A stretch of 35,572 bases of DNA from Acidimicrobiales bacterium. Its GTDB lineage: Bacteria; Actinomycetota; Acidimicrobiia; Acidimicrobiales; AC-14. The stretch's first letter is position 1, and the number at the start of each line of letters is the position of its first letter. Below are positions 4,760 through 13,150 of the stretch, one piece after another. Location of the stretch: contig JAODBK010000107.1 of NCBI GenBank assembly GCA_025463925.1, positions 1 through 35,572 on the forward strand, given 5' to 3'. Both the position numbers and the translations under genes were made by a program. The notes below the pieces were generated by a model, which made no database searches, had not been told where the DNA came from, and saw only the letters and a program-made list of their open reading frames with translations.

Positions 4760-5968
4760 TCAGGCGGCTCGCTCGAGGATGTGGACCCCGCACGCCGAGC
4801 CGAGGCCGATGACGTGGGCCAGCCCCACGCGCGCGCCTTCGATCTGGCGATCGCCGGCCTCGCCGCGGAGGTGATGGCAGACCTCCCAGATGTTGGCGAT
4901 GCCGGTGGCCGCGATCGGGTGACCCTTGGACTCCAACCCGCCAGACACGTTCACCGGCGTCTTGCCGTCGCGCCACGACGCGCCCGACTCGAAGAAGTCG
5001 ACCGCGCCGCCCTCGGGGCACAGCATCAGGTTGTCGTAGTGCACGAGTTCGGCGGTGGCGAAGCAGTCGTGCAGCTCGACCAGGTCGAGGTCTTCCGGCC
5101 CGATGCCGGCCTTCTCGTAGGCCTGGTTCGCGGCCAGGCGCGTCAGCGAGTTGACGTTGGGAAGGATCTGGCACGCCTCCTCCCACGGGTCGGTGGTGAG
5201 CACCGACGCCGCGATCTTCACCGCCCGGCGCTGCTGATCCGGACCGAGGGTCTTGAGCTTGGCGTCGCTGACGACGACCGCGGCGGCGGCGCCGTCGCAG
5301 TTGGCCGAGCACATCGGTCGGGTGTTGGGGTAGGCGATCATGACGTCGTTCATGATCTCCTCGACGGTGAACTTCTTCTGGTACGCGGCCAGCGGGTTCA
5401 GCGTCGAGTGCGCGTGGTTCTTCTCGGAGATGCGGGCGAAGAGCTCGAAGCTGGTGCCGTCGTAGGCGTTCTTGTGCAGGTACTCCATGCCGACCTGGGC
5501 GAACACGCCGGGCATCGTCTCGGTGCCGATGCGCCCGTCGACCGCGGCGACCGCGCCGTACCGGCCGCTCGGCGTCCATGTGTCGCCGTCGTCCTTGCGG
5601 GCGCCGCCCGACAGCAGCCCGGCGCCCGAGAGCTTCTCGACGCCGACCGCGAGGCCCATGTCGCACTCGCCGGCCTTGACGGCCATGTACGCGACCCGCA
5701 GCGCGGTGGCGCCGGTCGCGCATGCATTGGCGACGTTGTACACGGGGATGCCGGTCTGGCCCACTTGCTTCTGCAGCTGCTGGCCGATGCCGCCCGACGC
5801 GTTCATGAGGTTGCCGGCGGCCAGCACGCCCATCTGCTTCATCGTCACGCCGCCGTCCGCCAGCGCGGCCATGGCGGCCTCGGAGGCCAGGTCGACGGTG
5901 TCCTTGTCAGTGTGCTTGCCGAACTTGGTCATGTGGATCCCGAGGATCCAGACGTCGTCACTCGCCAT
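4760..5968 (-). CDS. Thiolase-family protein (SCP-x / lipid-transfer type)
   Basis: 402-aa thiolase-fold enzyme, likely for CoA-dependent carbon-carbon bond cleavage in beta-oxidation. The nucleophilic Cys is in NVANACATGAT (Cys83); ELHDCFATAE, SKGHPIAATG (catalytic His) and the C-terminal GLGSACGVHIL (second Cys) follow. Having all these residues favours a true thiolase over an Ltp2-type aldolase, which lacks the thiolase cysteine chemistry. Start ATG 5968 is preceded by GAGGAG at about 7 nt. The gene lies 11 bp downstream of a DUF35 gene on the same strand; DUF35 proteins are known partners of SCP-x-type thiolases and aldolases in steroid side-chain degradation and of archaeal acetoacetyl-CoA thiolase/HMG-CoA synthase. 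Confidence 0.92.
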   Translation of the reverse strand: MASDDVWILGIHMTKFGKHTDKDTVDLASEAAMAALADGGVTMKQMGVLAAGNLMNASGGIGQQLQKQVGQTGIPVYNVANACATGATALRVAYMAVKAGECDMGLAVGVEKLSGAGLLSGGARKDDGDTWTPSGRYGAVAAVDGRIGTETMPGVFAQVGMEYLHKNAYDGTSFELFARISEKNHAHSTLNPLAAYQKKFTVEEIMNDVMIAYPNTRPMCSANCDGAAAAVVVSDAKLKTLGPDQQRRAVKIAASVLTTDPWEEACQILPNVNSLTRLAANQAYEKAGIGPEDLDLVELHDCFATAELVHYDNLMLCPEGGAVDFFESGASWRDGKTPVNVSGGLESKGHPIAATGIANIWEVCHHLRGEAGDRQIEGARVGLAHVIGLGSACGVHILERAA

Positions 5969-5979
5969 CGTCAGACTCC

Positions 5980-6375
5980 TCAGGTCAGGGGCTCGAAGCC
6001 GAAGCCGATGGCCTCGGTGCCCTCGGTGTCGGCACCCACGACGTACGTCGCGAGCCGGACCTTCATTCCCAGCGTCACGTGGTCGGGGTCGGGGTCGGTG
6101 TTGATCACGTTGGCCCGCACGCTGGTGCCGCCGCAGTCGACGACGCCGGCGGCGAACGGCACCGGGATGCCGGGCGCCGCGAACGAGACGATGGTGAACG
6201 CCCGGAGCTCGCCCTCGGTCGGGATCGTCGCCTTCCGGAAGTCCGTGCCGCTGCACGAGGCGCAGGCGTTGCGGCGGTCGAAGTACCGGGCGCCGCAGCC
6301 GGTGCACTCGTTGGCGACGAGGTGCGGCTCGCCGTCGAGGGACAGGTAGTCCACCAGGGGGATCTGTTTGGCCAC
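5980..6375 (-). CDS. DUF35 / OB-fold Zn-ribbon acyl-CoA-associated protein
   Basis: 131-aa protein with an N-terminal rubredoxin-like zinc ribbon (Cys24, Cys27, Cys38, Cys41 in ECTGCGARYF and ACASC) followed by an OB-fold (GELRAFTIVSFA to the C-terminus). DUF35 proteins scaffold a thiolase-fold partner and help hold or channel acyl-CoA. The gene directly precedes the thiolase and almost certainly forms a complex with it. Start is GTG 6375; no well-spaced ribosome site is present, but TATTTT lies so that transcription would begin at about the GTG, suggesting a leaderless mRNA. Confidence 0.9.
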   Translation of the reverse strand: MAKQIPLVDYLSLDGEPHLVANECTGCGARYFDRRNACASCSGTDFRKATIPTEGELRAFTIVSFAAPGIPVPFAAGVVDCGGTSVRANVINTDPDPDHVTLGMKVRLATYVVGADTEGTEAIGFGFEPLT

Positions 6376-6463: not shown

Positions 6464-7450
6464 ATGAGCAACGTGATTCGAGAGTCCGACGCCGACACCG
6501 GCGCGATCGCCGGGCAGCGCGTCGCGATCGTCGGCTACGGCAACCAGGGCCGGTCGTGGGCGCTCAACCTCCGCGACTCGGGCCTCGACGTGTCGGTGTG
6601 CGTCCGGGCCGACCCGTCACGCGACGCCGCCGAGGCCGACGGGTTCTCGACGAGCGACCTGGCGGCGGCGTCGGACGCCGACATCGTCTGCGTGCTCGTG
6701 CCCGACGACGTCATCCCGATGCTGCCCCTGCAGCCCCGCGACGATGCGCTCGTCGTCGTCGCCAGCGGCTTCACGCTGGCCTTCGGACGCCTCGACCTGG
6801 CGTGCGACGTCGGGATGGTCGCGCCCCGGATGCTCGGGCCGGAGGTGCGCCGCTGCTACGAGGAGGGCGTCGGCTTCATCACCGCGGTCGGTGTCCATCG
6901 CGACGTCACCGGCACCGCTCGGGCCCGCACGCTGGCGGTCGCCCAGGCCATCGGCGGCCTGCGCCAGGGCGCCCTCGACCTCACGCCGCGGCAGGAGGCG
7001 GTGCTCGACCTGGCGGTGGAGCAGGCGCTGTCCCCGGCGCTCAGGCTGGTCAGCGAGTCGTTCGTGCGGGTGATGCTGGAGGAGGGCGTGCCGATCGAGG
7101 CGATCGTCACCGAGCTCGTGCTGTCCGGTGAGGTCGAGCGGACCTACCGGCTGGTCCGGCTCGAGGGTGGCGCCGCGCAGATGGCGTACCACTCGCCGAC
7201 GAGCCAGTACGGCCAGATGTCGCGGGCCGGGAGCTACGACCACCTCGACGTGGCGACGACGATGCGCGAGCTGGTCGGCGACATCACGTCCGGACGCTTC
7301 GCCGACGAGTGGGATGCCGAGCGCGACGCCGGCTACCCGCGGCTGGACGCGTTGCGGGCCAAGGCGATGGCGCCCGAGATCCTCGCGTTCGAGGCCGACC
7401 TGCGGGCCCAGCTCGGCGAGGGCGCGGTCGCCACTACTCTCCAGCCATGA
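6464..7450 (+). CDS. Ketol-acid reductoisomerase-like (IlvC-fold) oxidoreductase, divergent
   Basis: 328-aa protein with an N-terminal Rossmann domain (VAIVGYGNQGRSWALNLRDSG begins near residue 21) and a C-terminal all-helical KARI-type domain. MVAPRMLGPEVRR matches the IlvC MVAPKGPG segment. Asp182 and Glu186 in DLAVEQA align with the metal-binding D-x3-E of IlvC (DLFGEQ). The catalytic His of the IlvC AHG motif is Ser101 here (VVASGF), so ordinary branched-chain amino acid synthesis is doubtful; a related reduction or a redox-sensing role is possible. Start ATG 6464 has GGGGAG 5 nt upstream. It heads a coupled operon and overlaps the next gene by ATGA. Confidence 0.8.
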   Translation: MSNVIRESDADTGAIAGQRVAIVGYGNQGRSWALNLRDSGLDVSVCVRADPSRDAAEADGFSTSDLAAASDADIVCVLVPDDVIPMLPLQPRDDALVVVASGFTLAFGRLDLACDVGMVAPRMLGPEVRRCYEEGVGFITAVGVHRDVTGTARARTLAVAQAIGGLRQGALDLTPRQEAVLDLAVEQALSPALRLVSESFVRVMLEEGVPIEAIVTELVLSGEVERTYRLVRLEGGAAQMAYHSPTSQYGQMSRAGSYDHLDVATTMRELVGDITSGRFADEWDAERDAGYPRLDALRAKAMAPEILAFEADLRAQLGEGAVATTLQP

Positions 7451-7566
7451 CTGCGCCTGCTGCCGGCAACCGCTTCCGGTGTGAGACCTGCGGGACCGAG
7501 ATCATCGTCGTGAAAGCCGGCGACGCGGTTCCGTCGTGCTGTGACGAGCCGATGGCGGCCCGCTGA
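7447..7566 (+). CDS. Desulforedoxin-like mini rubredoxin, Cys4
   Basis: 39-aa protein. Cys12, Cys15, Cys31 and Cys32 (FRCETC ... PSCC) have exactly the CxxC-x15-CC spacing of desulforedoxin, the 36-aa homodimeric Fe(Cys)4 protein of Desulfovibrio, and of the N-terminal domain of desulfoferrodoxin. It is therefore likely to bind one iron (or zinc) and act in electron transfer or superoxide/oxidative chemistry. The ATG overlaps the stop of the KARI-like gene (ATGA) and the stop overlaps the next start (TGATG), so the three are translationally coupled. It is short enough to be missed by gene callers. Confidence 0.75.
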   Translation: MTAPAAGNRFRCETCGTEIIVVKAGDAVPSCCDEPMAAR

Positions 7567-7709
7567 TGGCCAACCAGCTCGGCAAGCGGTACACGTGCGC
7601 GACGTGCGAGGCCACGATCCTCGTGACCAAAGCGGGGGACGGCACCCTCCAGTGCCACGGCGCGGTCATGGAGATCGCGACCGCGAAGCCGCTGCCGTCG
7701 TCCGACTGA
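7566..7709 (+). CDS. Desulforedoxin-like mini protein with Cys3His site
   Basis: 47-aa paralogue of the preceding gene. Cys11, Cys14 and Cys30 keep the desulforedoxin spacing, but the fourth ligand position is His31 (LQCHG instead of CC). The metal site is therefore predicted to be Cys3His, which would alter redox potential or favour zinc. A 16-residue tail beyond the ligands (VMEIATAKPLPSSD region) is longer than in its neighbour. Its ATG overlaps the stop of the Cys4 gene (TGATG). Homo- or heterodimerisation with the neighbour is plausible because desulforedoxin is a dimer (inference). Confidence 0.7.
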   Translation: MANQLGKRYTCATCEATILVTKAGDGTLQCHGAVMEIATAKPLPSSD

Positions 7710-7718
7710 CGGCGGTCG

Positions 7719-8861
7719 ATGGAGCCGGGCGTCGACGTCGCCGCCTGGCGCAGCTTCTGCCGGCGCTTGGAGGCGGTCGGCGAGCAGCTGCTCGGGCCGG
7801 CGTTCCCGCAGGACCCGGCTGATCGTGCCGAGGGATTCGCGCACCTGGCCGAGCAGGTCGTCTGCTGGGTCGCGTGGTCGGTGAGCCACCTCGATCCACG
7901 GTCGCCGGCGTTCCAGCGGCAGAACGACCTGGTCACCAAGTGGGGCGGCCCCAACGCCGACAACGGGTACCGCCACGCCCGCGTCGACCCGTCGCTGCGG
8001 TACCGGATCACCGGCCGCATGCACGCGTGCGAGGAGTTCATCCTCGCCCTGCGCGGCGGCTTCATGCACATGCCGGCGTGGGGCACGTTGCACGAGGTCA
8101 CCGCGTCGGAGCTCGGCATCCGCGAGGGCGATGACTTCGAGATCCTGCTGGGCGGGCCCGGCGGGATCGCGATCCCCGGCGGCGCGTGCATGGCGACGGT
8201 GCGCGAGTACTACTGGGACTGGCGGGCCGACGAGCCGGCCACGTTCACCATCGAGTGCCTCGACGGGCCGGCGGAGACGCGGCCGCGACGACATGCCGAT
8301 GCAGTGGCGGCGGCGCTGGAAGAGGCGATCGTCGGCGTCGAGCAGTCGATCACGTACTGGAACGGCTACCTGCGCGACATCCGGCGCGCCACACCGGACA
8401 ACACCTTCGCCCCGACCATGACGCTCGCCAAGGGCCTCGACGCCGCCAAGTACGCGTTCTGCGCCTTCGACCTCGCGCCCGACGAGGCCCTGGTGATCGA
8501 CAGCGACTTCCTCGACGCGCGCTACTGGAGCCTGCAGCTGGCCGACATGACGTGGTTCGAGTCGCTCGACCTGGCCAACCGGATCATCAGCATCAACCAT
8601 CGCCAGGCGCGGGCGTCGGCAGACGGGCGGTTGCAGGTCGTCGTCGCCCACGACGACCCCGGTGCCGCCAACTGGCTCGACACCGAGGGCCGTCGCGCCG
8701 GGCTGGTGACCTACCGGTGGTTCTGGTCCGACGAGGAACCGCGCCCCACCACCTCGGTGGTGAAGGTCGCCGACGTGCGCAACGGCGACGTGGACCCGTC
8801 GGCCCGCCGCGAGGAAGTGGCGCGCCGCCGGCGCCATGTCGCGTGGCGGTTCCGGACGTGA
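7719..8861 (+). CDS. DUF1214 domain-containing protein
   Basis: 380-aa soluble protein with no signal peptide. The C-terminal half fits DUF1214: AFDLAPDEALVIDS, ARYWSLQLAD, SINHRQ, the VVAHDDPGAANWLDT block and a final YRWFW. KWGGPNADNGYRHA in the N-terminal half is shared with the paralogue at 26277 (KWGGDNADAFYQYA). No catalytic motif is known to me; the domain often occurs with lipid or steroid genes in actinobacteria. Starts 9 bp after the Cys3His mini protein; its stop overlaps the next GTG (GTGA). The ribosome site is weak, in keeping with coupled translation. Confidence 0.8.
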   Translation: MEPGVDVAAWRSFCRRLEAVGEQLLGPAFPQDPADRAEGFAHLAEQVVCWVAWSVSHLDPRSPAFQRQNDLVTKWGGPNADNGYRHARVDPSLRYRITGRMHACEEFILALRGGFMHMPAWGTLHEVTASELGIREGDDFEILLGGPGGIAIPGGACMATVREYYWDWRADEPATFTIECLDGPAETRPRRHADAVAAALEEAIVGVEQSITYWNGYLRDIRRATPDNTFAPTMTLAKGLDAAKYAFCAFDLAPDEALVIDSDFLDARYWSLQLADMTWFESLDLANRIISINHRQARASADGRLQVVVAHDDPGAANWLDTEGRRAGLVTYRWFWSDEEPRPTTSVVKVADVRNGDVDPSARREEVARRRRHVAWRFRT

Positions 8862-10366
8862 GCGTGCTGTCCGACACGTTGGCCGAGGCCGCCCGGCGGT
8901 TCCCCGAGCGGCGGGCGCTCGTCCACGGCGAGATGGCGTTCACCTACGCCAGCCTCGACGCCCTCGCGACCCAGCTGGCGGCCGGCCTGGCGAAGGAGGG
9001 CATCCAGGCGGGTGACGTCGCCGCGCTCGTCCTGCCGGCGGGCCCGGAGTACGTCGTCGCGTACCTCGCGTTGGGCCGGCTCGGTGCGATCGCCACCGGC
9101 GTCGGGCACCGGTACACCCCGGACGAGCGGTCCAAGGTCCTGGTCCAGGCCGACCCCGCGGTCGTGCTGACCACCGAGGAGCTGACCGAGGGCGTGCCAT
9201 CCGGGCCGCCGATGATCCTCGTGCGCCCGGCCGCGGATGTGGACGACGTCTGGCGCGAGGTGCGGGTCGATGCCGCGCCACCGCCGGCGCCGGCGACCGA
9301 GCCCGATCTGGTCGAGACGATCGTGTTCACGTCCGGCACGACCGGCACGCCGAAGGGCGCGATGTTCACCTCGCGCCAGATCGCGGCGATCACGCGGATG
9401 GACACCGGCGGCGCGTGGGGCGCCGGCGGGTCCCAGGTGGTCGCCACCGGGCTGCCCCACGTCGGGTTCATGACCAAGCTCGCGGGCAACGTGCAGCAGG
9501 GACTGACGATGCACCTGCTGGCGCGGTGGCGGGCCGCCGACGTGCTCGAGATCATCGCCCGCGAGCGCATCGCCCATGTCGGCGGTGTCGCGGCGCAGAT
9601 CGCGCTGCTGCTGCGAGTCCCCGGGTTCGACTCCTACGACCTCTCGGCGGTGAAGGGGCTTATCGTCGGCGCCGGACCCTCGCCGCCGGCCATCGTCCGC
9701 GAGGCCCGCGCCCGCTTCGATGCCGGGTACTCGATCCGGTACTCGTCGACGGAGTCCGGCGGGCTCGGCACGCTGACCGCATTCGACGCGCCCGACGACG
9801 AGGCGCTGCACACCGTGGGCCGGCCGCGGCCCGGGACCGACCTGTCGATCCGGTCGACGGTCGACGGCGCGGTCCTCCCCGTCGGCGAGACCGGCGAGGT
9901 CTGCCTGCGCTCACCGGCGGTGATGGCGGGCTACTGGCGCGATCCCGACGCGACCGCGCGGGCGCTCGATGCCGAGGGATGGCTGCGCACCGGCGACGTC
10001 GGCTGGGTCGGCGAGGACGGCTGCCTGCGCCTCACCGGCCGCATCAAGGAGCTGTACATCCGCGGCGGCTACAACGTGTACCCGCTCGAGGTGGAGGGTG
10101 TGCTGCTCGACCATCCGGCGGTCGCGTCGGTGGCCGTCGTGCCCCGGCCGAGCTCGGTGATGGGCGAGATCGGCGTGGCCGTCGTCGTGCCGCGCGACGG
10201 CGTCGCGCCGCCGACCCTCGACGACCTCCGCGCGTTCGCGGCGACGCGCCTCGTGCACCACAAGCTGCCCGAGGCGATTCGCATCGTCGACGCCATCCCG
10301 CTCACCGGCATGGACAAGGTCGACCGGCGCGCGTTGGCGGCGCGCGAGGCGGACGCGGCCGAGTGA
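8858..10366 (+). CDS. Acyl-CoA synthetase (AMP-binding)
   Basis: 502-aa ANL-superfamily ligase. FTSGTTGTPKG is at residues 157-167; YSSTESGGLG, GWLRTGDVG, LTGRIKELYIRGGYNVYP and the C-terminal TGMDKVDRR (catalytic Lys) follow. It would activate a carboxylic acid to an acyl-CoA. GTG 8858 is chosen because it overlaps the previous stop by 4 bp (GTGA), matching the coupling seen throughout this operon; GTG 8864 is the alternative. It is distinct from the FadD3-like ligase at 1855. The substrate presumably links to the sulfotransferase and thioesterase that follow. Confidence 0.93.
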   Translation: MSVLSDTLAEAARRFPERRALVHGEMAFTYASLDALATQLAAGLAKEGIQAGDVAALVLPAGPEYVVAYLALGRLGAIATGVGHRYTPDERSKVLVQADPAVVLTTEELTEGVPSGPPMILVRPAADVDDVWREVRVDAAPPPAPATEPDLVETIVFTSGTTGTPKGAMFTSRQIAAITRMDTGGAWGAGGSQVVATGLPHVGFMTKLAGNVQQGLTMHLLARWRAADVLEIIARERIAHVGGVAAQIALLLRVPGFDSYDLSAVKGLIVGAGPSPPAIVREARARFDAGYSIRYSSTESGGLGTLTAFDAPDDEALHTVGRPRPGTDLSIRSTVDGAVLPVGETGEVCLRSPAVMAGYWRDPDATARALDAEGWLRTGDVGWVGEDGCLRLTGRIKELYIRGGYNVYPLEVEGVLLDHPAVASVAVVPRPSSVMGEIGVAVVVPRDGVAPPTLDDLRAFAATRLVHHKLPEAIRIVDAIPLTGMDKVDRRALAAREADAAE

Positions 10367-12274: not shown

Positions 12275-13150
12275 ATGCGCTTCTCGTACGCCGAGACGAT
12301 GACCGACCCGAGCTTCTACGCACCGCTCGCGCGGGCCGCCGAAGAGGCCGGGTACGCCAACTTCGTCATCCCCGACAGCATCTGCTACCCGCGGGAGTCG
12401 GACTCGGTCTACCCGTACAACCCGGACGGCACGCGGGAGTTCCTCGAGGACAAGCCCTTCATCGACCCCTTCGCGCTGATCGCGGCGCTGGGCGCGGTCA
12501 CCGAGAAGATCCGGTTCACGACCTTCGTCATCAAGCTCCCGATCCGCCATCCGGTGCTGACCGCCAAGCAGGCCGGATCGGTCGCGGTCCTCACCGGCGG
12601 GCGGTTGGTGCTCGGCGTCGGCACCAGCCCCTGGCGCGAGGACTACGCGTTGACCGACGTGCCGTGGGAGCGCCGCGGCCGCCGCATGGACGAGTGCGTC
12701 GAGATCGTCCGCGGCCTCACGCAGCCGGGATGGTTCGAGTACCACGGTGAGATCTACGACGTACCGGCCGTCAAGATGACGCCGACGCCGGAGCGACCGG
12801 TGCCCATCCTCATCGGCGGCCACGCCGAGGCCGCGCTGAAGCGGGCCGCCGCCCTGGGTGACGGGTGGATGCACGGCGGCGGTGACCCGGCCGACCTCCC
12901 CGGCCTGCTCGACCGGCTCGGGCAATTGCGCAAGGAGCACGGTCGTGATCACGAGCCGTTCGAGATCCACGTGATCTCGTTCGAGGCCTTCACCGTCGAC
13001 GGCGTGAAGCGGCTCGAGGAGCAGGGCGTGACCGACGTGATCGTGGGGTTCCGGTGGCCCTACGACGTCGGGCCGGACACCGAGTCGCTGGCGATGAAGC
13101 TGGACAATCTGCGCCGGTTCGCCGACGACGTCATCGCGAACGCGCAGTAG
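12275..13150 (+). CDS. LLM-class (F420-dependent-like) oxidoreductase
   Basis: 291-aa luciferase-like TIM-barrel flavin or F420 oxidoreductase. Typical blocks are SYAETMTDPSFYAPLARAAE at the start, KIRFTTFVIKLPIRHPV, GGRLVLGVGTSPWREDY, WERRGRRMDE, and PVPILIGGHAEAALKRAA. In actinobacteria this group usually uses coenzyme F420, although FMN cannot be excluded from sequence alone. ATG 12275 follows AGGGG with good spacing and lies 9 bp after the thioesterase, making this the last gene of the 6464-13150 operon. It could supply a redox step on the substrate activated upstream. Confidence 0.9.
   Translation: MRFSYAETMTDPSFYAPLARAAEEAGYANFVIPDSICYPRESDSVYPYNPDGTREFLEDKPFIDPFALIAALGAVTEKIRFTTFVIKLPIRHPVLTAKQAGSVAVLTGGRLVLGVGTSPWREDYALTDVPWERRGRRMDECVEIVRGLTQPGWFEYHGEIYDVPAVKMTPTPERPVPILIGGHAEAALKRAAALGDGWMHGGGDPADLPGLLDRLGQLRKEHGRDHEPFEIHVISFEAFTVDGVKRLEEQGVTDVIVGFRWPYDVGPDTESLAMKLDNLRRFADDVIANAQ

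Follow-up and report, generated by a model that had tools for sequence, protein, structure and literature searches.

The window, that is, the whole stretch of 35,572 nucleotides of Acidimicrobiales DNA analyzed here, carries two very small consecutive genes, referred to as DRX1 and DRX2. They lie in a plus-strand series encoding a KARI-like protein, DRX1, DRX2, a DUF1214 protein, a FadD-type acyl-CoA ligase, a sulfotransferase, a thioesterase and an LLM protein (Table 1). In agreement with the initial annotation, the stop codon of the KARI-like gene and the start of DRX1 share an ATGA (7447–7450), and DRX1 and DRX2 overlap in a TGATG (7564–7568). Direct reading of the sequences places the cysteines of DRX1 at positions 12, 15, 31 and 32 (C-x2-C-x15-CC) and the ligands of DRX2 at C11, C14, C30 and H31 (C-x2-C-x15-CH). 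The previously described desulforedoxin spacing, with 15 residues between the ligand pairs, is present in both frames, as is the replacement of the last cysteine of the second frame by a histidine. The minus strand close to the pair (4760–6375) additionally encodes a thiolase-like protein and, beside it, a DUF35 protein with Zn ribbon and OB domain (PF12172, PF01796).

Table 1 Features of the DRX locus in the window.
Feature	Position	Strand	Description
DUF35 gene	5980–6375	−	PF12172, PF01796; another small acyl-CoA-metabolism protein with a Cys ribbon
KARI-like paralogue	6464–7450	+	KARI_N/KARI_C; below the NCBIfam ilvC cut-offs
DRX1 (ORF1)	7447–7566	+	39-aa C4 desulforedoxin-like protein, first of the pair; ATG 7447, TGA 7564–7566
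DRX2 (ORF2)	7566–7709	+	47-aa C3H desulforedoxin-like protein; ATG 7566, TGA 7707–7709
DRX2 C-terminal tail	7686–7706	+	KPLPSSD codons; conserved; least confident part of the AF2 model
DUF1214 protein	7719–8861	+	PF06742, 30.1 bits (cut-off 25); window-specific neighbour
FadD-type acyl-CoA ligase	8858–10366	+	PF00501; two genes downstream of DRX2
LLM gene	12275–13150	+	fifth gene downstream of DRX2

DRX1 and DRX2 are real, constrained, overlapping genes. The median dN/dS was 0.36 for DRX1 (26 sequences, 183 pairs with pS 0.1–0.6) and 0.34 for DRX2 (26 sequences, 297 pairs with pS 0.1–0.6), values that are rough due to the shortness of the genes. Both medians lie below 1, and together with the conservation described below they rule out chance ORFs. 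Genes of 39–47 aa are readily missed by annotation, and the expectation that they would easily stay unannotated is borne out among their relatives: for plasmid relatives, which are mostly fused, the label was ‘hypothetical protein’ in 15 of 18 records, two were unannotated and one record had no feature at this position. In a second set of relatives’ records, all of them (11/11) were labelled ‘hypothetical protein’.

Relationship to desulforedoxin

Desulforedoxin is a homodimeric Fe(Cys)4 protein. DRX1 scored 33.8 bits against PF06397, the N-terminal domain of desulfoferrodoxin (cut-off 23), and matched the PDB desulforedoxin 1cfw (E 0.0035). DRX2 alone stayed under the PF06397 cut-off with 17.9 bits, and neither protein reached the 36.05 bits of NCBIfam TIGR00319 (desulf_FeS4; DRX1 25.3, DRX2 15.7). 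For a profile of 28 DRX2 relatives, the best PDB sequences were desulforedoxin (E 5.5e-5) and desulfoferrodoxin (E 8e-5). The AF2 model of DRX2 (pLDDT 88.8; block means 91 and then 75, lowest in the C-terminal tail) resembled desulforedoxin 1dxg with an rmsd of 0.7 Å over 36 residues (probability 1.00, TM 0.73/0.93, Foldseek E 0.037, Z 6.0), and DRX2 is accordingly modelled as a C3H variant of the desulforedoxin fold. The profiles of DRX1 and DRX2 are homologous to each other (hhalign E 2.6e-21, a single comparison).

The complete desulforedoxin ligand set C-x2-C-x15-CC is present in DRX1 and absent from DRX2, where His31 is the fourth ligand; it was found in 24/24 upstream partners of parsed pairs, which had been preselected by a looser Cys pattern. 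The C-terminal SOR domain of superoxide reductase (desulfoferrodoxin) is absent, as the proteins stop after 39 and 47 aa, and a PHROGs search with three proteins returned no match. Altogether, the DRX proteins share with desulforedoxin (PDB 1dxg/1cfw) the length, the C-x2-C-x15-CX spacing and, for DRX2, the predicted fold. Unlike desulforedoxin, which is one homodimeric protein, they form a tandem unequal pair with a C3H site and a conserved C-terminal tail in DRX2, and their family includes fused ligand-free relatives and occurs in acyl-CoA operons.

Distribution and conservation of the pair

A DRX2 match was obtained in 33 of 60 related genomes, the window’s own included, at E ≤ 1, and 22 of the 33 were at E ≤ 0.003. 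With a 21-row profile, 118/298 genomes of the order showed a match at E ≤ 0.01. The same profile matched 24/396 genomes of the phylum, 19 of them at E ≤ 1e-15; four of the other five matches were C4 desulforedoxin or desulfoferrodoxin proteins.

For comparison of ligand types, 80 named loci were retained from 96 relatives; the query used to retrieve them was C3H, which biases the C3H share upward. They comprise 41 C3H, 20 C4, one C3D and 18 ligand-free forms, and a C-x2-C-x15-CC frame is located at most 450 bases upstream in 29/41, 13/20, 1/1 and 0/18 of these, respectively. The adjacent C4 and C3H genes of the window are therefore a recurring pair. The histidine proved to be co-conserved as well: C11, C14, C30 and H31 are invariant in all eight C3H proteins aligned, and so is the PLPSSD of the tail. 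The C3H site as a one-off is ruled out by its presence in 41/80 named loci, this share carrying the bias of the query.

Since tail patterns preselect tailed members, we rechecked the conservation of the tail on profile-defined matches. Out of 87 loci, nine were skipped and 15 lacked a readable GKR; in 60 of the 63 readable relatives, a stop codon directly follows the final D of the tail. The three misses are two wrong-strand picks and one local alignment ending two residues early.

The C4+C3H pair was found in Acidimicrobiia and other Actinomycetota MAGs, Nocardia, Rhodococcus and Gordonia, and the C4+C4 pair in Chloroflexota, a Desulfobacteraceae MAG and Microbispora. C3H forms lacking an upstream C4 frame occur in Amycolatopsis, two Rhodococcus, one Acidimicrobiaceae MAG and three Microbacteriaceae MAG loci, and as fusions in Frankia, Pseudofrankia and locus L144. 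Fused forms are also present on plasmids of Mycobacterium branderi, Rhodococcus and Streptomyces and in some Sphingomonads. Genomes can contain several unlinked DRX copies, for example on six contigs in genome G149.

Some loci deviate in their organization. Rhodococcus phenolicus (L119:5998–6722) encodes two identical copies of a C3H protein about 440 bases apart. In a Deltaproteobacteria MAG (L158) and a Binatota MAG (L154), the order is DRX2-ECH-FadD-ECH-DRX1, with the pair bracketing the acyl-CoA genes; this is perhaps the older arrangement. The Chloroflexota C4+C4 pairs (L137, L139–L143, L148, L157) have their own conserved neighbourhood, with small unidentified genes upstream and, downstream on the other strand, an LLM or acyl-CoA dehydrogenase gene and a zinc-type dehydrogenase gene. 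A record titled Bifidobacterium breve MAG (L120) contains a DRX locus of Acidimicrobiia type that closely resembles L103 and is probably misbinned.

Fusion of the two domains and loss of metal ligands

In other lineages, single proteins of about 80–105 aa hold both domains in the order of the pair, with the C-terminal tail kept and the metal ligands gone. Their domain 1 follows the pattern ‘RLxSxVCxTEVIVVKAP..L.CGG..M’ and their domain 2 the pattern ‘LGKRY......EVLCTKAG.GSL......KEAKPLPSSD’; in single hhalign comparisons, they matched DRX1 (E 1.8e-12) and DRX2 (E 2.7e-20), respectively. Among 69 parsed fusions without a CxxC in domain 2, domain 1 of one protein has three ligand cysteines and that of 34 proteins has two; a further 22 have a single one, and 12 have none. 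This parsing demands a non-Cys residue at the fourth position, and seven unparsed fusions inspected by eye also lack the fourth Cys. Two intermediate states exist, namely a ligand-free domain 1 with a C3H domain 2 (Frankia group, L144) and a three-Cys domain 1 with a ligand-free domain 2 (L184).

A model of the ligand-free fusion L161 (pLDDT 93.2, pTM 0.82, last residues least sure) displayed two like strand patterns. Neither the fold search with the fused model nor the fused profile yielded a match in the PDB, and ligand-free fusions matched no family in Pfam (one tried) or NCBIfam (two tried). The three-Cys fusion L098 gave Zn-ribbon matches that were all under the cut-off, and a C3H fusion passed PF06397 with 24.3 bits. 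That the fused form has the desulforedoxin fold is proposed from its relatedness to the pair and from the predicted strand pattern.

Two tail types can be distinguished: K-tail forms end in SAD, and P-tail forms in PLPSSD or similar. In the K-tail C4+C4 loci L073, L075 and L076, the gene order is DRX1(C4)-DRX2(C4)-ECH-CaiB-ECH. In twelve further loci (L216–L227), the genes for ECH and CaiB come after one ligand-free fusion of 73–82 aa, in most cases with another ECH behind them; exceptions are an extra gene in L221 and an opposite-strand call in between in L222, and some gene lists end early. These fusions contain no cysteine in L217–L220 and one in the other eight loci. The K-tail fusions L228, L229 and L231 had no readable ECH neighbour. 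The adjacent ECHs of K-tail pairs (three rows) and K-tail fusions (12 rows) form one clade (SH-aLRT 97). Similarly, ECHs beside C3H pairs (ten rows) and those of fused P-tail operons (five rows) form one clade with a support of 100. This points to a K-tail operon in which pair and fusion replace each other, and to a probably independent replacement in the P-tail lineage. A 43-column domain tree was compatible with one origin of the ligand-free forms as well as with two (p-AU 0.238); two origins are suggested by the ECH trees and the two tail types.

Genomic neighbourhood of the DRX genes

We analyzed the co-directional flanking genes of the DRX forms, skipping DRX genes themselves, in comparison with 1056 other genes of the same loci. 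These control genes come from loci rich in acyl-CoA genes, overlapping loci are counted repeatedly, related genomes are not independent, and the neighbour on one side is missing for 13 P-tail and two K-tail ligand-free forms and for one C3H form. FadD flanked 51/65 ligand-free P-tail forms, 5/46 C3H forms (no enrichment, p 0.33), 3/15 P-tail C4 forms and 0/17 K-tail forms (control 86/1056). ECH was found beside 12/17 K-tail forms (C4 4/6, ligand-free 8/11), 11/46 C3H, 2/15 P-tail C4 and 5/65 ligand-free P-tail forms (control 80/1056), and CaiB beside 18/46 C3H and 7/65 ligand-free P-tail forms and none of the 15 P-tail C4 or 17 K-tail forms (control 152/1056). For any acyl-CoA family taken together, the fractions were 56/65 for ligand-free P-tail, 33/46 for C3H, 5/15 for P-tail C4 and 12/17 for K-tail forms (control 477/1056). 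The link to acyl-CoA genes is therefore strong in two groups, the ligand-free P-tail forms and the C3H forms. In K-tail forms it is confined to ECH, and the P-tail C4 forms, of which 10/15 come from Chloroflexota, show none.

Overall, acyl-CoA ligase, crotonase and CaiB-type CoA-transferase are the recurrent neighbours, and some pairs have an LLM or acyl-CoA dehydrogenase gene next to them. Of the FadDs located near fused, C3H or C4 forms, 48 rows group in one clade with a support of 100, a clade chosen after viewing the first tree and after dropping 13 near-duplicates. FadDs near DRX genes that fall outside it include L065_4, L066_8, L067_2, L173_6, L163_3, L168_1, L146_6, L154_3 and L158_8.

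The window’s pair has neither the linked FadD subfamily nor crotonase or CaiB adjoining. Its FadD was placed outside the DRX-linked clade in the trees (p-AU 0.043 upon adding it). Another contig of the same genome (C31) encodes a FadD 54% identical to the DRX-linked FadD of L103, with an amidohydrolase gene a few genes away; no DRX gene was listed among the genes of the 13 kb surrounding this FadD. The arrangement in the window therefore appears atypical, and the partner of its pair, if any, may act in trans.

With BLASTP against the called genes and TBLASTN against the nucleotide sequence of 173 DRX loci (E ≤ 1e-5), a KARI-like or DUF1214 match was found in 0/172 other loci of 3–12 kb each and solely in the window’s own copy (L210). 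The window’s sulfotransferase matched none of the 173 loci, of which L210 stops short of that gene. Close paralogues of the KARI-like gene (62–86% identity) occur in 8/59 other genomes, and none was seen beside DRX genes, with KARI itself uncalled in L270 and L272 and several contigs short. The other KARI copy of the window’s genome, on contig C107, is 39% identical to the KARI-like protein. The KARI-like paralogue type of the window is present in all six sampled genomes with C3H forms, the window’s own included, and its neighbours vary. A conserved partnership with the KARI-like gene is ruled out by the paralogues not seen beside DRX genes and by the 0/172 loci. The LLM gene, previously regarded as a neighbouring enzyme, is indeed downstream in the window, but not adjacent. 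The proposal made at the outset, of redox partners for the KARI-like and LLM enzymes, finds no support in these data: the recurring neighbours are ligase, crotonase and CoA-transferase, and LLM genes lie beside some pairs.

Possible function of the DRX pair

The ligand-free forms occupy the same operon position as eight-Cys pairs, so the metal looks dispensable, and the loss of ligands could also signal a changed function of the fused forms. This bears on the heterodimeric or two-potential redox pair proposed in the initial annotation. Its heterodimeric part gains indirect support, because the natural fusions hold both domains in the same order; its redox part is not supported, given the ligand-free members. 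A pair of two potentials, with Fe(Cys)4 and Fe(Cys)3His centres feeding electrons to neighbouring oxidoreductases, would suit the ligand spacing and fold of desulforedoxin, itself an Fe(Cys)4 protein, the C3H site of 41/80 named loci (a biased sample, from a C3H query) and the LLM or acyl-CoA dehydrogenase genes beside some pairs. However, orthologous ECHs have ligand-free proteins next to them at this operon position, just 1/69 parsed ligand-free fusions retains three Cys in domain 1, and the usual partners FadD, crotonase and CoA-transferase require no electrons. Ligands that can be dispensed with speak against a conserved role in electron transfer, and we consider this explanation unlikely. 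A sensor of metal or oxidation, gating the acyl-CoA pathway via the metal site, could be imagined from the Cys-rich sites of some lineages and their graded loss in others, but the proteins are small domains leaving no room for a DNA-binding part, and the ligand-free forms of the same operon lack the sensing site, which makes such a role highly improbable.

Another possible explanation could be based on MbtH-like proteins, which are very small and dedicated to an ANL-superfamily enzyme. By analogy, the fusion or the pair would bind the acyl-CoA ligase, which is one of the ANL adenylating enzymes, and would be required for that ligase to fold or to be active. FadD adjoins 51/65 ligand-free P-tail forms, on one side or the other, the DRX-linked FadDs form their own clade, and a ligase is located next door in 4/4 plasmid loci inspected (of 18 records). 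The possible likeness lies in the very small size and the nearby ANL enzyme; unlike MbtH-like proteins, DRX proteins also have crotonase and CoA-transferase as neighbours. K-tail forms adjoin crotonase and never FadD (0/17), C3H forms of Nocardia and Rhodococcus adjoin CaiB, and one specific partner cannot cover all forms. A dedicated ligase activator is hence doubtful, and any single enzyme as the sole partner appears excluded by the varying type of partner.

We propose, with a probability of roughly 0.5, that the DRX pair assists acyl-CoA enzymes as an accessory subunit or assembly factor dedicated to its operon, and that its metal is optional and structural. The operon-dedicated copies beside acyl-CoA enzymes, together with the conserved and probably flexible tail, suggest an accessory subunit, and several unlinked copies per genome, as in G149, fit operon-dedicated partners. 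The paralogues DRX1 and DRX2 would pair, one copy each, as the two halves of a desulforedoxin dimer, as the natural fusions indicate. Each half could carry a structural metal, probably Zn or Fe, at its C4 or C3H site. The pair would serve the acyl-CoA enzymes encoded alongside, i.e. acyl-CoA ligase, crotonase or CaiB-type CoA-transferase, with the KPLPSSD tail of DRX2 as the likely contact to the partner enzyme. In other lineages, the halves would have become one chain in which the ligands decayed and the two-domain layout and the tail stayed; the C4 outgroup suggests this direction of change, from ligands to none. More tentatively, a desulforedoxin-derived heterodimer might have turned into a metal-optional accessory subunit that fused and shed its metal site at least twice, in the K-tail and the P-tail forms, keeping a partner-binding tail.

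A comparable case is the DUF35/ChsH2-type protein (rubredoxin-like Zn ribbon plus OB domain; PF12172, PF01796), likewise a small Cys-ribbon protein beside acyl-CoA enzymes and a partner of thiolase-like enzymes; one report describes co-purification of the DUF35 domain with its thiolase-like aldolase partner (PMC11321319). Unlike these proteins, DRX proteins belong to different Pfam families, have no OB domain and have other neighbour genes. In the open-access literature, subscription papers being outside our scope, we found no description of desulforedoxin tied to acyl-CoA or Actinobacteria. On desulforedoxin and heterodimers, this literature yielded a paper on a siderophore reductase. A prior description of the C4/C3H pair, the fusion and the family-wide loss of ligands was not found in this literature.

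Across the family, the evidence favours a helper role over the carrying of electrons, and the interest of DRX proteins lies more in the family-wide loss of the metal than in the pair alone. If this is true, a widespread unnamed family of small proteins would add a so far missing part to the acyl-CoA catabolism of Actinomycetota and some Sphingomonads. Because its members would range in nature from eight ligands down to none at one operon position, the family could be used to ask what a small metal site is for, and it would represent a metalloprotein in which the metal served as scaffolding that could be given up.
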